A program made the translations under genes and the position numbers. A DNA stretch of 64,000 nucleotides. Source: Nostocales cyanobacterium LEGE 12452. Lineage in GTDB: Bacteria > Cyanobacteriota > Cyanobacteriia > Cyanobacteriales > Nostocaceae. This document shows positions 14,333-21,985 of this stretch, in pieces (the stretch's first letter is position 1; each line of letters begins with the position of its first letter). The stretch lies in NCBI GenBank assembly GCA_015206945.1, contig JADEXV010000011.1, positions 1 to 64,000 of the forward strand. The letters run 5' to 3'. Below the pieces are notes generated by a model. It was not told where the DNA came from. It saw only the letters and a program-made list of their open reading frames with translations, and ran no database searches.

Positions 14333-16093
14333 TTAATTATTCTGCATTGCTGCGGCAAGCTTCTCTAAATTTTGACGAACAGTAACACTACGCTGATGAT
14401 TTACACCCCAGACTTGCTCACAAATATCTAAAGCTTGCAAATAAAGCGCTTCGGCTTCACCGTAACGCCCCGTTGCACGATAAATTTCTGCCAGATTATT
14501 CAGACTTTCGGCAACATTGGGATGATTTTCTCCCAATAGGTGCTTATCAAGTTCTAAGGCTTTTATACATAAAGGTTCTGCTTCATTGTAACGTCCCTGC
14601 TCTCTGTACATATAACCAAGAGCATAGATCGTATCTGCTAATAGCGGATGCGCTTTTTGTAATACACGCTGCTTGAGTTCTAATGATTCCAAAAACAAAG
14701 ATTCCGCTTCACTGTAGCGTCCTTGAGCGCGGTATATTAAACCTAAATTGTGCAAATCTGTGGCAACATCAGGATTTTCTTCACCCAAAAATCGCTTATC
14801 TAATTCTATTGCTTGTTGCGACAAAGGTTCAGCTTCACTGTAACGTCCTTGATGATAATAAAGTAGCGCTAAATTATTCAGTATAAGAGCAAAAGAAAGA
14901 TGATTTTCACCCAGCAGACGTTTTTCGAGTTCTAATGATTGCAAATACAGAGGTTCTGCTTCGTCATAACGCCCTTGTTCATCATATAGTAATGCCAAAT
15001 TGTTCAGACTGGCAGCGACATCGGCATGGTGTTCTCCTAACAATCCTTTCCTCAGTTCTAAAGCTTGTTGATATAGGAGTTCTGCTTTATTATATTGTCC
15101 AGTAGATTTGTAAAGTCCTGCCAAATTATTCAGGCTAGTAGCAAAAGCAGGATGATTTTCTCCTAACAGGCGTTTTCTCAGTTCTAAAGCTTGTTTATAT
15201 AAGGGTTCGGCTTCGCTGTAGTGTCCCGTTGCACGATATATTCCTGCTAAATTGTTGAGGCTATTAGCTAAGTCTATCTGCAAACCCAATTCATTTTGTA
15301 ACTCACTCGCCTGACGCCAATATTTAATTGCTAATTCCTGTTCTTCTTGATAATTTTGAGATTCACCCCGATCTAATCTGCTGTGGTAAATATCGCCCAA
15401 TCTTGAGTACAAAGTAGCCAAGGTGGGGTCTTTAGTTCCCCGTTCTTGTTCTACTTTCTCGATTAACCTTTGTAAATCTTGAATGGGTAAAGAAAAGCGA
15501 TTAGTTTCATTAGTATCTGTGCTGGCTAATTCTGTATCTCGAAAAACAAAGCGGATATTTTCTAATTCTTTACCAGGAATAGCATTTGTCTTTTGAGATT
15601 CAAACCGAAATACACCATTGCGCCAACTCCAAAAATCAGGAGCTTTTTTAATCAGATTGACTAAAATTTGGTTAGTTACCCAAAGCACGATCGCAAATGG
15701 AAATTCGCGCAATCCTTCCCTTGTCCACTGTAAGTAACCAAAAAACTTTTCCTGTTCCGATTGCTCATTTCCTAACCTGAGAAAATACAATTGTTCAGCA
15801 CCCGTCACAGTGATTACCGCCGGGTTTTGCTGACGGAGATATTCTTCTTGTTGTACCAGTTGATTAAGAGCAGCTTTGAGACTAGGTTCTTGACGTGCTA
15901 AAGTTACTCGATATGCACCGAAGGCGGATTGTAGTTCAGCTTCATATTGAGCAATAATCTCATCGCGAAAGCTAGCATCATCGCAAACCGCAATCAGTAA
16001 ATTTAATCCCCGCTTTTGAGCTTCAATAGAAACAATTAAATCATCATACGCATCTTGATTTTCTCCTTCATCAAATAATTCTTCATTTAACAT
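14333..16093 (-). CDS. TPR (kinesin-light-chain type) repeat protein
   Basis: The 586-residue protein has two parts. The first 200 residues form an alpha/beta domain that I do not recognise with certainty (LNLLIAVCDDASFRDEI, AVITVTGAEQLYFLRLG, FAIVLWVTNQI); it resembles a degenerate P-loop or STAND-like module without a Walker A sequence. From about 275 to the end there are seven TPR units of 42 residues, each containing a YxxxGxYxEAE-like core, the pattern called TPR_10/12. The start overlaps the end of the upstream NTPase gene by 11 bp, so the two are translationally coupled and probably interact. A split sensor/NTPase pair of conflict-system type is an inference. Confidence 0.85.
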   Translation of the reverse strand: MLNEELFDEGENQDAYDDLIVSIEAQKRGLNLLIAVCDDASFRDEIIAQYEAELQSAFGAYRVTLARQEPSLKAALNQLVQQEEYLRQQNPAVITVTGAEQLYFLRLGNEQSEQEKFFGYLQWTREGLREFPFAIVLWVTNQILVNLIKKAPDFWSWRNGVFRFESQKTNAIPGKELENIRFVFRDTELASTDTNETNRFSLPIQDLQRLIEKVEQERGTKDPTLATLYSRLGDIYHSRLDRGESQNYQEEQELAIKYWRQASELQNELGLQIDLANSLNNLAGIYRATGHYSEAEPLYKQALELRKRLLGENHPAFATSLNNLAGLYKSTGQYNKAELLYQQALELRKGLLGEHHADVAASLNNLALLYDEQGRYDEAEPLYLQSLELEKRLLGENHLSFALILNNLALLYYHQGRYSEAEPLSQQAIELDKRFLGEENPDVATDLHNLGLIYRAQGRYSEAESLFLESLELKQRVLQKAHPLLADTIYALGYMYREQGRYNEAEPLCIKALELDKHLLGENHPNVAESLNNLAEIYRATGRYGEAEALYLQALDICEQVWGVNHQRSVTVRQNLEKLAAAMQNN

Positions 16094-17375
16094 TAATTGC
16101 CCCCTGCCTTTTCAAGCTTTCGATAATAATTGGATGAACATCATACCAAGTTTCATCGGTGCGATATTCTAGAACATACAGTCCATGTAATAAATCTAAA
16201 AACTCTGCTTGTTTCGGGTCATTGGGCATAAATTGTTCATACACACTCTGCAAAATATCGATATCAGTTTTTCCTAAGCGTATGGAAAAATCATTGCGTA
16301 TTTTATTGATTGCTTGCAGGAGAATTTTATCATCAATAATAACTTCGGCTGAAGGGTTTCGCCGGATAGTTCGCAAACATATACGGCAACATTCTTTAGA
16401 AATCCGAATTAACTCTCGCAATACGCCACCACTGTAAATTACAATTTTTTCAGCAGTTTCTGCCGCAATTAATTCACTGGAAATTCGCTTTTGTAAAACT
16501 TCACCGAGAATCTTTGTTGCTTCTGGGCGAGGTTGAGCATTAGGAAAACGATTTTTACCTTTATCAAATATTTTTAAGACAGGCATTGCCACTACTTGAT
16601 CGTTAGTTTCAGTGGCAATTATTGTGCTAATAAATGTTTCTCGAAGGACTGCGATCGGGATGGTGTAAATAATTTGAAAGTTAGGTTGGCAAAGAGCTTT
16701 AATGTTATCTCGATAAATCTCGTTAACTCTGCCTAAGTCAAGCTTATCTAAATCATCAATAATTACTAAAACATTTTGTTTCGTTGCAGCTTGAATTAAA
16801 GCAGCTATTTCGTTAATTCTGGCAACTAAATCTGATAACTTGCGTTCAAATTCTTGCTTAATTTCATCCCGAACGCTAGCATCAGCTTTTAATTTAGAGC
16901 TAATCAATTTTAAAAGGTCAAAACCTATACTAACTTCTGCTTGCAAATTGGATTCTTCAGTGCGAGTACGGGTAGCAAACCACTTATAAAGAGCGTCTTT
17001 AGTAGATTGCGGAATATCAACTTTGCGTGCTTCTGCCTCTGTCATTAAATTAACTGCGATCGCAAACAGTATATTAATATGATTAACAGCCGACATTTCG
17101 ATTTTGTCAGCAATAGAAAAGAGAACTACAAAATATTTATCTTGAATTTGTCGGCTAAATTCAGCTAACAAAGTAGACTTACCACATCCTCGATGTCCTG
17201 TAAAGACAATTTTGCCATCTCCATTAGGACTATCTTCTACTAATTGGTTCAGGTCTGCAATCAAATCATCACCATATTCGACTCGAAATCTTTCCATTTC
17301 GTTCCGTTCCATCAACGGAAACAGTTCGAGATTGCTGTATGCTTCTTGAAAGGAGTTTAATAAGTCTTGAGACAT
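16083..17375 (-). CDS. P-loop NTPase (AAA/STAND-like ATPase)
   Basis: The 430-residue protein has a Walker A motif FTGHRGCGKSTLL near residue 60 and a Walker B VLVIIDDLDKLD near 205, followed by a sensor-like arginine region and a C-terminal helical, winged-helix-like part ending YEQFMPNDPKQAEFLDLL...WYDVHPIIIESLKRQG. This is the layout of AAA/STAND ATPases that act as molecular switches. No membrane segment is present. It is the first gene of a two-gene unit with the TPR protein (11-bp overlap). The combination is reminiscent of bacterial NLR-like signalling ATPases, but no effector domain was identified. Confidence 0.85.
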   Translation of the reverse strand: MSQDLLNSFQEAYSNLELFPLMERNEMERFRVEYGDDLIADLNQLVEDSPNGDGKIVFTGHRGCGKSTLLAEFSRQIQDKYFVVLFSIADKIEMSAVNHINILFAIAVNLMTEAEARKVDIPQSTKDALYKWFATRTRTEESNLQAEVSIGFDLLKLISSKLKADASVRDEIKQEFERKLSDLVARINEIAALIQAATKQNVLVIIDDLDKLDLGRVNEIYRDNIKALCQPNFQIIYTIPIAVLRETFISTIIATETNDQVVAMPVLKIFDKGKNRFPNAQPRPEATKILGEVLQKRISSELIAAETAEKIVIYSGGVLRELIRISKECCRICLRTIRRNPSAEVIIDDKILLQAINKIRNDFSIRLGKTDIDILQSVYEQFMPNDPKQAEFLDLLHGLYVLEYRTDETWYDVHPIIIESLKRQGAINVK

Positions 17376-19011: not shown

Positions 19012-19199
19012 ATTTTAGAAGTTTCTTTTAAATGTCGCAAAATTAATTGAGTCGAACAACTGTTCGGTTTTGCAACCTACCAAGCTATCCGACTCGGTTT
19101 TATATTCGGAGGTTGTCGCCTTCCTCGCTGGTTCAGGTCTGGACTCCCTGGTGTACGCTCGATAAATTCCCACTTATCAACTCTGACTTTGGGGAGTAC
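19012..19199. other. Spacer next to the template-like repeat, no RT gene
   Basis: This is where a DGR reverse transcriptase would be expected (downstream of the template repeat on the minus strand), but only non-coding sequence is present. It includes a palindrome CGAACA-AC-TGTTCG at 19053-19066, itself flanked by GCAAAA (19037-19042) and TTTTGC (19068-19073). Confidence 0.55.
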
Positions 19200-19323
19200 T
19201 CACGCCACAGCCACAGCCACCATGCGAAAACCAACATTGTTGTTACAATTCGCGCGCGTTCCTATTGCGATTGGCAGAATGGCAATTCTTGGCATTGTTG
19301 ATCCAACTACCGCCACGCAGTAG
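19200..19323 (-). repeat. Template-repeat-like copy of the FGE gene 3' end
   Basis: This 124-bp non-coding segment is homologous to the last 120 bp of the caspase-FGE gene (19525-19644), in the same orientation and 201 bp downstream. Translation of the minus strand gives LLRGGSWINNAKNCHSANRN, then after a 2-base deletion NNNVGFRMVAVAVA. By hand alignment, 18 of 23 substitutions relative to the gene copy fall at adenines of this copy (coding strand), although only about 23 percent of its bases are adenine. That is the pattern of a DGR template repeat. An alternative is a decayed FGE-gene fragment. Five non-adenine differences and two indels (6 bp and 2 bp) argue that it is not an exact active template. 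Confidence 0.7.
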
Positions 19324-19524
19324 CTAAAATCGACCTGCCCCATCCTCAAACTCTCAAACTAAGTGAGAAATTTGATTAAATGTAGTGTATAATATTTTTC
19401 ATATCAAGACACCGCTTTTTGAAAAAAAATTTTTGACCCGCCTGTTGGCAGTGAGAGAAGAAGAAGGGAAAAGAGAAAGAAGTGTAGAGGGCAAAAGGGG
19501 AAGAGGATAAAGAGCAAGGAATCC

Positions 19525-19644
19525 TCACGCCACAGCCACCACGCGAAAACCAGCAATGAGGTCGCGATACGCGCGCGTGAAGCTAAAGCGACTGGCAGAA
19601 CGGCAATCCGAGGCATCGGCGATCCAATTACCGCCACGCAGCAG
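19525..19644 (-). repeat. Candidate DGR variable repeat
   Basis: The 3' 120 bp of the caspase-FGE gene, including the stop codon, encode residues 649-687. Relative to the downstream copy at 19200-19323, codons for Asn, Lys and His have become Ala, Asp, Ser, Arg and Phe through changes at A. The 3' end GFRVVAVA is conserved between the copies, as expected for the homing-initiation side of a variable repeat. Confidence 0.68.
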
Positions 19645-21588
19645 CCTTGTGTCATTATCGCTACCAATCAACAACGGTCTACCATCTGTTGGTGCATCTA
19701 TGTAATTACCATTATACACATCTTTACACCATTCCCATACATTACCATGCATATCGTATAAACCAAAAGAGTTAGGCGGAAATTTTCCTACATCTATTGT
19801 TTGTTCAAGATCTTCGCCCTTTGGTGCAGAGCCGTAAGGAGAGTCACCGAAGTAGTTAACTAAATCTGTGGTAATCGTTTCACCAAAATAAAACGGTGTA
19901 GTTGTTCCGGCACGACAAGCATATTCCCATTCGGCTTCACTGGGTAGCCTGTAGGTTTTTCCTATCCTTTGGCTCAATTTTTTACAAAATTCTACTGCAT
20001 CATCCCAACTCACCTGTTCTACAGGTCGTTTCTCACCTTTGAACTTAGAAGGATTATTACCCATAATTGCTTGATACTGTGCCTGGGTGATTTCATATTT
20101 ACCCATGAAGAACCCAGGTACTTTTACCTGATGCTGTGGACTTTCATCTTTATCCCTCTGTGCTTCTCCTTCAGCTGAACCCATCATAAAAGTTCCCCTT
20201 GGTATCTGCACCATTTCCAGGGTGACACCATTCCCTAAATCTTCAACAAAGTGTTTTGCCTCACTATTGCTACGGTTGGTAATATTTCCCCGTGCATCGA
20301 CCGTGACAATTTCAAATTGAAAGCTTTTTAGGCTAATTGCTTCATTGGTGGGGGGGGTACTAGTTTCTCCTGAATCAGATGGCCAAAAACGTGGTACTGC
20401 AATTGTCAAACCCAACCCAGCAACTGCAAACCCAGCAGTTTGAATTACACGTCGTCGTGACCAGTTAGGTAATATGATTTTTGATGGCGAAACAGGTGTT
20501 GAAGGTGTTGAAATTGTAGATTTTGTAAATTGTCCCGCACCAGAAGCCTGAGTATTATTAATCGGGGATGGTGAAGTTGCCTTGGGGGTTTGAATCTGAG
20601 GAGGTTTACTTATAGGTGTATTTGTGGCTGACTTAGATTGTTGTGGAATTGTTTGCTGAGGTAAATCAGGATTTGCAGAACTATTTCGCAACCGAGCAAT
20701 TTCTTCCAAGGCTTCTATAGCTTCCATATCTTGATCTGATGCAGCAGCTAGTACCCTAATCCAGAGTTGTTTTGCTAAATCAAAGTCTCTCTTACTCTGA
20801 GCGCGATAAGCATCATTTTTCAACGTAGCGATATCCGCTAGAGTTGCATATCTTGGCACAAGTATTAGGTGGGATTTATTAACAGGTTCAGCAATCACAT
20901 AAGGCGTTTGCCTTGTATTCTTATGCTGGCGAACCAGTTCAGGCACACGAAATTTGAGATATTGCTCCAATCGTTCAACAGTAGCGCATCGACCTTGAAT
21001 TCCTAAGCCTTCTAATAATGCAGTGGTAAAAGCACCTTGTTGTAAAGCCTCAATTTCATAAGAAAACTCTTGGGGAATACAAGAAAAAAAGCTGATAACT
21101 CCTTGTTGACGTGCTTCTTCTGCGGTTTGTCGCCCAATTCCTTCACCTGTTTTTTTGCCTTCATTGCGACAAGCATCCAGAATCAAGACAACATTATCAG
21201 CACCGCAGCGACGCAGACGTTCAGTGACAAAGTTAATGGCAATTGCCGTGTTTTCAATATCTTCTGGATCGCCATCACAGGGCATGAGATAATCACGGTC
21301 AGCGTATCTTATCCCATGACCACTGAAGAAAAACCAGAAATTATCTCCTGCTCCCATAAAGGGATTGTCAAATAACTGCCGCAAGACTCGCAGCAAGTTA
21401 GTGCGAGTTGGGCGAGTCGATTTTCCGTCAACATGAGGAGAGTCATCAGAGAAGAAGAATATCCGCTCAAATCCGGCTTCATTGCTCAGAAACTCCTGCA
21501 TTAACAGTGCATCCCGCTTGGCATAGTTTAGCGGTTGCAGATAATCATACTGGTTAATTCCGATCGCGATCGCCCAATTTTTTGCCAT
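19525..21588 (-). CDS. Caspase-like peptidase fused to FGE-sulfatase domain
   Basis: The 687-residue protein has an N-terminal caspase-family (C14, orthocaspase) domain (1-240) with catalytic His91 in FFFSGHG and Cys140 in LILDACRN. A Pro/Ser/Thr/Gln-rich linker covers 303-370, and a hydrophobic segment (383-399) preceded by SRRR may anchor it in the membrane. The C-terminal 455-687 is a formylglycine-generating-enzyme/C-type-lectin fold: IPRGTFMMGS, ITQAQYQAIMG, RLPSEAEWEYACRAG, LYDMHGNVWEW. The last 40 residues (LLRGGNWIADAS...GFRVVAVA) form the surface that DGRs diversify, and a template-like copy lies downstream. It starts 1 bp after the stop of a Trypco1-like gene, so both are coupled. 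Confidence 0.93.
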   Translation of the reverse strand: MAKNWAIAIGINQYDYLQPLNYAKRDALLMQEFLSNEAGFERIFFFSDDSPHVDGKSTRPTRTNLLRVLRQLFDNPFMGAGDNFWFFFSGHGIRYADRDYLMPCDGDPEDIENTAIAINFVTERLRRCGADNVVLILDACRNEGKKTGEGIGRQTAEEARQQGVISFFSCIPQEFSYEIEALQQGAFTTALLEGLGIQGRCATVERLEQYLKFRVPELVRQHKNTRQTPYVIAEPVNKSHLILVPRYATLADIATLKNDAYRAQSKRDFDLAKQLWIRVLAAASDQDMEAIEALEEIARLRNSSANPDLPQQTIPQQSKSATNTPISKPPQIQTPKATSPSPINNTQASGAGQFTKSTISTPSTPVSPSKIILPNWSRRRVIQTAGFAVAGLGLTIAVPRFWPSDSGETSTPPTNEAISLKSFQFEIVTVDARGNITNRSNSEAKHFVEDLGNGVTLEMVQIPRGTFMMGSAEGEAQRDKDESPQHQVKVPGFFMGKYEITQAQYQAIMGNNPSKFKGEKRPVEQVSWDDAVEFCKKLSQRIGKTYRLPSEAEWEYACRAGTTTPFYFGETITTDLVNYFGDSPYGSAPKGEDLEQTIDVGKFPPNSFGLYDMHGNVWEWCKDVYNGNYIDAPTDGRPLLIGSDNDTRLLRGGNWIADASDCRSASRFSFTRAYRDLIAGFRVVAVA

Positions 21589-21589
21589 C

Positions 21590-21985
21590 TCACTGTGATT
21601 CTTGGCGCTTGAACTTCAGCTTAATAGCTCCTTTACTCCAAGCTTTGACACCACTGCCAATTAATTTAACTTCCCCATCTGCACTAATTTCTACTGATAG
21701 CTCAATTTCATCTAGCTGCATCTTGGAGTTGACTTTTGCTTGCTGTTCAGCTTGACTAAACAAACTTCCCACGAGTTTGAGAAAGTGAGTCATATTTTGC
21801 TCTAATTTTTGAGCGCTAACTTTAACGGCATCTTCTACCCCTTCGCTAGCAGTATTATCCCTGGTAGTTTCGTCTTTCCAACTGCCTCTATTAATACTCC
21901 TGCCTTTAGCACCGTCAGGAATCGATATTTGAGGGGTATCATCCGTCACAATCCAAATGCGATCGTCTTGGGGTGTTTTTGACAT
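21590..21985 (-). CDS. Trypco1-like effector-associated protein
   Basis: The 131-residue protein has a disordered start, a helix (VEDAVKVSAQKLEQNMTHFLKLVGSLFSQ) and a C-terminal beta-rich stretch, DEIELSVEISADGEVKLIGSGVKAWSKGAIKLKFKR, that resembles the trypsin-co-occurring domain 1 (Trypco1/CU044_2847) of bacterial conflict systems. That domain is found next to trypsin- or caspase-like effectors. The stop codon is 1 bp before the start of the caspase-FGE gene, so translational coupling is likely. Assignment is by pattern and neighbour, not by search. Confidence 0.65.
   Translation of the reverse strand: MSKTPQDDRIWIVTDDTPQISIPDGAKGRSINRGSWKDETTRDNTASEGVEDAVKVSAQKLEQNMTHFLKLVGSLFSQAEQQAKVNSKMQLDEIELSVEISADGEVKLIGSGVKAWSKGAIKLKFKRQESQ

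Follow-up and report, generated by a model that had tools for sequence, protein, structure and literature searches.

The 64,000-nucleotide stretch analysed here (the window), taken from contig JADEXV010000011.1 of Nostocales cyanobacterium LEGE 12452, carries a true target/template pair of a diversity-generating retroelement (DGR). Its locus lacks genes for a reverse transcriptase (RT) and for the accessory protein Avd, both of which are found on another contig of the same genome. Our verdict is that the locus represents a DGR cassette of the non-autonomous kind, which is undergoing decay in this strain. We consider it likely that the cassette, made of a target gene with its variable repeat (VR) and of its own template RNA gene, was copied in its lineage by an RT-Avd pair encoded elsewhere. 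The initial annotation, made from the letters alone, had proposed a VR/template pair on a caspase-FGE gene without local RT, the enzyme being either lost or acting in trans. The evidence supports the pair, and both options for the RT prove relevant, given the intact RT and Avd elsewhere in the genome and the RT remnants and absences in the genus.

The target/template pair of the window

The product of the target gene (Table 1) has a caspase domain at residues 4-233 (Peptidase_C14, PF00656, E 2.7e-27) and a C-terminal FGE-sulfatase domain at residues 458-684 (PF03781, E 1.5e-53). By this Pfam match, hence by sequence family, the VR lies at the 3' end of a gene of the C-type lectin/FGE fold. The FGE/C-lectin face of the protein is presumed to bind ligands and the caspase may be a defence effector. 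Genes with Pepco-like matches, as found next to the target gene, occur in 12 of the 67 RT-unlinked loci examined in the family (see below), many of which span just 1.5 kb upstream. Downstream of the cassette, inspection by eye of positions 14333-17375 suggests one gene with TPR repeats and one resembling P-loop ATPases, which may form a further signalling or conflict module.

Table 1. Features of the DGR cassette in the window
Feature	Position	Strand	Description
Structured 3' element of the DGR template RNA	19039..19208	-	194.8 bits to covariance model R1; shares a few bases with the TR end
Template repeat (TR), non-coding, degenerate	19200..19323	-	2-nt deletion, 5 substitutions from consensus, premature stop if copied
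Conserved leader upstream of the TR	19324..19415	-	TATTATAC box, predicted hairpin TCAAATTTCTCA/TGAGAGTTTGA, then GGGGCAGG
Variable repeat (VR)	19525..19644	-	Final 120 bp of the target gene; substitutions mostly at TR adenines
Target gene, 687 aa, caspase + FGE	19525..21588	-	ORF; Pfam matches
Pepco-domain gene directly upstream of the target gene	21590..21985	-	PF24393, E 3.2e-36

Program alignment of VR and TR covers 115 bases with 23 substitutions, 18 of them at adenines of the downstream copy, where A accounts for only 28 of the 115 positions (hypergeometric p = 5.5e-10). An excess of substitutions is seen for no other base in the two copies; the five remaining changes are three T>C, one G>A and one G>T. 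The adenine bias counted by hand in the initial annotation is thus borne out, as is the spacing of 201 bp between the repeats, and its two indels reduce to a single 2-nt gap. Other copies of the TR of useful length are not found in the genome at E up to 1.

Comparison with the consensus of 12 orthologous templates, the window template included, separates the history of the template from that of the gene. The five substitutions of the window TR are four G>A and one C>T, and three of the five occur in no other template. The four G>A differences create four adenines of the window TR, three absent from the other templates and one common to two others; they stem from the template and not from changes in the target. 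The adenine excess is therefore due in part to the template, yet 15 of the 21 differences between the window VR and the consensus TR are still at A (p = 3e-8). The 2-nt deletion is private to the window template among the 12 compared. Since a copy of it would give a truncated protein, homing from the present window template has probably stopped, in agreement with the earlier suggestion that the template is old. The window also offers the case of a template that is dying while an RT elsewhere in the same genome remains intact.

Reverse transcriptases and orthologous cassettes in the genus

The 8.38-Mb genome of the window gives 13 RVT_1 matches, 12 above the cut-off, among them one intact DGR-type RT of 352 amino acids with motifs IGNLTSQ and YVDD, located on contig C32. 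Its gene is preceded by one coding for a 115-residue Avd (NF033474, 139 bits versus a cut-off of 80) and followed by its own template. The C32 VR and TR differ at 10 sites, all 10 at a template A, a sign of recent activity of this RT. The C32 template is distantly related to the window template (74% identity over 102 bases) and its 3' element is only ~73% identical to that of the cassette, so that C32 is no more than a candidate helper. The C32 target itself (positions 39-2500 of its locus) is pseudogene-like: the FGE reading frame is broken, and the same frameshift, ending in a stop, is present in both VR and TR, as if the template had passed its own defect to the target.

An FGE gene end, a spacer and a template are found together at 12 loci in 11 of the 53 genus genomes, the window's included; one of the 12, in G014, is counted by partial match. 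The caspase domain is matched in eight of these loci, the others being L056, L061 and L063, which have no caspase match, and L058, which starts at a contig end. When the 12 templates are set against 20 VRs of related genes, the TR adenines prove largely conserved among the templates, and it is these same columns that vary most in the genes. Differences between a VR and its own TR fall at A in 15 of 15 cases in G028, 13 of 14 in G010 and 10 of 12 in G024, down to 14 of 27 in G018, 10 of 26 in G022 and 13 of 40 in G014, with 0 to 27 non-A differences over the 12 cassettes. The template of G052 (L054, 9114-9239) departs from the consensus at four close-set places, three of them adenines, as if it had itself been hit by mutagenic copying.

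No RT match was obtained in the window nor in 20 fetched relatives, most of them with several kb of flanks. Every RVT_1 match of the 11 genus genomes carrying the cassette was read. An intact DGR RT is present in only two, the window's genome (G000) and G041, so close genomes do hold such enzymes, and two more, G010 and G052, have RT fragments. The idea of another RT class as partner was rejected, the motif IGxxxSQ being restricted in these 11 genomes to the C32 RT and to two RTs of G041. RVT_1 matches in G052 and G022 have IGxxxS without the Q, and several fragments are devoid of the motif, those outside G000 resembling mostly a group II ORF by BLAST; the other RTs may be of classes such as retron or Abi. 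Among 11 further genomes, 30 of 58 RVT_1 matches were read (all those of G101, G143, G162 and G167, four of six in G200, and a minor part of those in G076 and G073) and IGxxxSQ was seen in G204 only.

DGR modules can occur on plasmids: avd, RT and a similar TR are found together on plasmid pn2 of Nostoc sp. UHCC 0926 and on p1FD4 of Microcystis aeruginosa FD4, the latter with an IS5-like element between avd and RT. The phage records searched gave no match.

RT-less cassettes and their template RNA across the family

A segment of ~170 nt located 3' of the template is similar between RT-less and RT-linked loci. RNAalifold run on 20 sequences, 10 RT-less and 10 RT-linked, gives 33 pairs, 12 of them with two-sided changes. 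In this structure 98.8% of the cells are paired versus 30-52% in slid controls, and there are 61 two-sided cells versus 20 in shuffles. The 12 two-sided pairs compare with 9.0 in shuffles and are reached by 5 of 500, whereas further pair types show no excess (28 versus 31.4). The window TR, non-coding, is followed by this covarying element (Table 1). The covariance model R1, built from 20 element copies including the window's, detects elements in 121 of the 217 genomes of the window's family (threshold E 1e-4) and in 103 of the 388 of its class (threshold E 1e-5).

The leader upstream of the TR aligns in 14 cassettes with a mean column identity of 90%. The leader is a candidate promoter region, and its predicted hairpin has two-sided changes in none of 24 pairs. 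The pair-mean divergence of the TR (0.09) and of the leader (0.10) is about one third of that of fourfold sites (0.29); that of the 3' element is 0.195, raised by two disrupted copies (L058 and L060). In the first of these (about 919-1375, G041:C38) an insertion of ~300 bp separates the element into two parts; the genome concerned encodes two intact DGR RTs.

Rfam family RT-14 (RF02921) occupies a like position. It spans its whole model in three of four RT-linked loci scanned, starting within ~20 nt of the TR end, with scores of 42.4 (L010), 44.5 (L074) and 37.6 (L075), all below the gathering score of 48.1. It has no match in the fourth RT-linked locus (L079) nor in the six RT-less loci scanned (L023 with the window element, L053, L061, L129, L147 and L195). 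The matches at the same place in RT-linked copies hint that RT-14 may be part of a DGR template RNA.

At least 150 elements are listed in the window's family, 65 of them just after a DGR RT match (58 intact) and 85 not. Examination of 67 of these 85 yielded 30 target/template pairs without RT, spread over 15 genera, 21 elements fused to the VR of an ORF, 2 loci with RT scraps and 14 unclear cases; the other 18, G041:C38 among them, are the lowest-scoring of the 85. Assignment to the target/template class required just a second copy, and the A-bias has p of 0.01 or less in all 30. Among named records, the RT-less pattern is seen in 13 Nostoc stretches and in one each of Nodularia, Goleter, Fortiea and Desmonostoc. 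Listed elements occur in 96 genomes (47 with an intact RT, 9 with only a broken RT and 40 without RT match), and many RT-less cassettes reside in genomes where no DGR RT was found. In G053 the cassette has 14 of 17 changes at A and the genome gives no RVT_1 match. Listed RT-unlinked elements are somewhat more frequent in genomes with an intact RT (23 of 49) than in others (46 of 168; p = 0.014, relatedness uncontrolled).

The RT-less cassettes have a common arrangement. From VR end to element the distance is 307-329 bp in those sharing the leader and is alike across RT-less cassettes, whereas in the RT-linked loci read the RT sits between target and TR. Mismatches fall at a TR adenine in 383 of 538 cases (71%) in 29 RT-less cassettes, versus 114 of 121 changes in nine RT-linked loci with intact RT; the tenth pair of the RT-linked listing, L081, has a broken RT (14 of 16 at A) and is outside this count. 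The 29 leave aside L191, a partial copy of 39 nt with 2 of 2 changes at A. Non-coding as they are, 27 of 30 TRs can be read through in an open frame; of the three others, L157 failed just the motif used. These 30, like those of the VR-to-own-TR counts below, include L143, classed as 'other' at first, and omit L191.

In the fused form (21 loci, including L134, L136, L141, L142, L147, L150, L153-L155 and L158) the element sits immediately 3' of the VR in a long ORF, and a separate TR is lacking. The ORFs of L147 and L158 carry unmutated Asn-rich template sequence. Self-templating by such VRs was considered and rejected: they have lost 9-14 of 24 adenines (seven fused loci) versus 10-18 of 24 in 12 cassettes (p = 0.21). 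In view of this lack of excess loss, the fused form probably arose by recombination between VR and TR.

Proposed homing in trans, alternative readings and known systems

The VRs of RT-less orthologues follow their own TR. At non-A sites that differ among the TRs of 13 leader-sharing cassettes (L143 not in this set), the VR agrees with its own TR in 1217 of 1478 comparisons, with another TR in 143 and with neither in 118; for 30 cassettes, agreement is with the own TR in 17574 and with another in 1618 of 21021. Comparisons within each set are not independent of each other, and the observed score is reached by none of 10,000 permutations in both sets. Since the RT-less layout comes with the same leader in 14 cassettes, it probably predates their split, and VRs that follow their own TR within this lineage indicate that homing went on after the layout arose. 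The RT-less layout appears in this way older than the last homing, with independent RT losses as a less likely history. Ordinary gene conversion alone would reset adenines; here the gene still shows them mutated, and the template has preserved them. The simplest reading of these sequences is that the local template was copied by an RT encoded elsewhere.

In the mechanism that we favour, the template RNA gene would consist of the leader, the TR and the structured 3' element, at a locus without RT or Avd. Its RNA would be copied by a DGR RT-Avd encoded elsewhere, possibly through recognition of the 3' element, with randomisation of adenines during copying. The cDNA would replace the VR of the adjacent gene to vary the FGE/C-lectin face of the caspase protein. 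In the genome of the window the helper could be the C32 RT-Avd. This action in trans is deduced from sequence patterns and not from observed events. Cassettes accompanied by an intact RT at another place in their genome show no clear advantage in freshness over unaccompanied ones (10 versus 15 loci, L191 again left aside, one-sided p = 0.14; p = 0.09 when four broken-RT loci join the RT-free group). The nearly pure A changes of RT-linked loci, compared with the lower share in RT-less ones, and the few RTs of the genus suggest that homing in trans is rare, intermittent or over in many strains.

The cassettes could also be plain relics of ordinary DGRs whose RT, once in cis, was lost independently in each lineage and never acted in trans. 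The broken window template, the spread of non-A differences in the genus and the frequent lack of an RT speak for this, be it the fragments of G010 and G052, the 40 of 96 genomes without RT match or the one cassette genome without RVT_1. However, RT-less cassettes resemble one another in leader and spacing, whereas in the RT-linked loci read the RT is placed between target and TR; several lineages would have had to lose it independently at one breakpoint, which is unlikely. After the split, moreover, VRs went on tracking their own TR. We hold this history to be unlikely, while giving it more weight than the two readings that follow. The template RNA might have been kept since RT loss for another job, as a regulatory or 3'-UTR RNA. 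This would explain its conservation in genomes where no DGR RT was found, and the 21 of 67 loci with the element fused directly to the VR of an ORF place it in a 3' UTR position. The template part keeps, however, adenines and an open frame that are relevant just for homing, and the fused form is more simply a VR-TR recombinant, as L147 and L158 illustrate. We judge such a role quite improbable.

A last possibility, raised by the initial annotation itself, is that the downstream copy at 19200-19323 represents what remains of the end of a paralogous FGE gene after decay, its likeness to a DGR being accidental. The copy is FGE-like in one frame, interrupted by a frameshift. Most cassettes (27 of 30) have this repeat open throughout, yet in the 30 pairs no stop-free stretch leading into a TR is longer than 159 codons. 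Moreover, the copy keeps its adenines in the relatives, is less variable than the coding VR, follows a conserved leader and runs into the covarying element found also at RT-linked templates. We reject a paralogue tail on these grounds as very unlikely.

Returning to the non-autonomous cassette, a broader proposal is that cyanobacteria host a stable class of such DGRs, in which target and template cassettes outlive RT loci and are driven through the 3' element by itinerant RT-Avd modules, some plasmid-borne. We put this forward tentatively, as a possibility that we would not yet bet on. It would imply a division of labour like that of SINEs and LINEs, with diversification of death effectors on in the presence of a helper RT and frozen at its loss. 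Surveys starting from the RT miss these cassettes, as they would the 85 listed family elements away from a found RT; if the RT acts in trans, hypermutable immune-type genes are underestimated. The 3' RNA element is now at hand as a tag to find them.

Isolated examples of DGR loci without RT are already on record (PMC7517822, PMC10907252), and the literature searched yielded no description of RT-less TR cassettes as a class. As far as that literature shows, the novelty lies in how many there are, in the template RNA that each carries with a shared structured element, and in the evidence of continued homing. In the report on Thiohalocapsa PB-PSB1 (Dore et al. 2024, PMC10907252), DGRs 4 and 5 likewise have the RT replaced at the locus and targets in conflict systems, and their diversification is best explained by components in trans. 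Their VRs match, however, the TR of DGR 2, another locus, whereas the VRs studied here have their matching TR within the same cassette, so that RT-Avd alone would act in trans. The work on cyanobacterial DGRs (Vallota-Eastman et al. 2020, PMC7517822) describes C-terminal C-lectin targets with VR, some targets with orthocaspase domains at the N-terminus, and remote targets, as well as all3226 of PCC 7120, a remnant of TR-VR homology with no RT nearby. The remote targets are tied there to the TR of the RT-bearing DGR of the genome; here, in contrast, each cassette has its own TR and 3' element, 14 are alike in their leader, and the same arrangement is seen in 15 genera.
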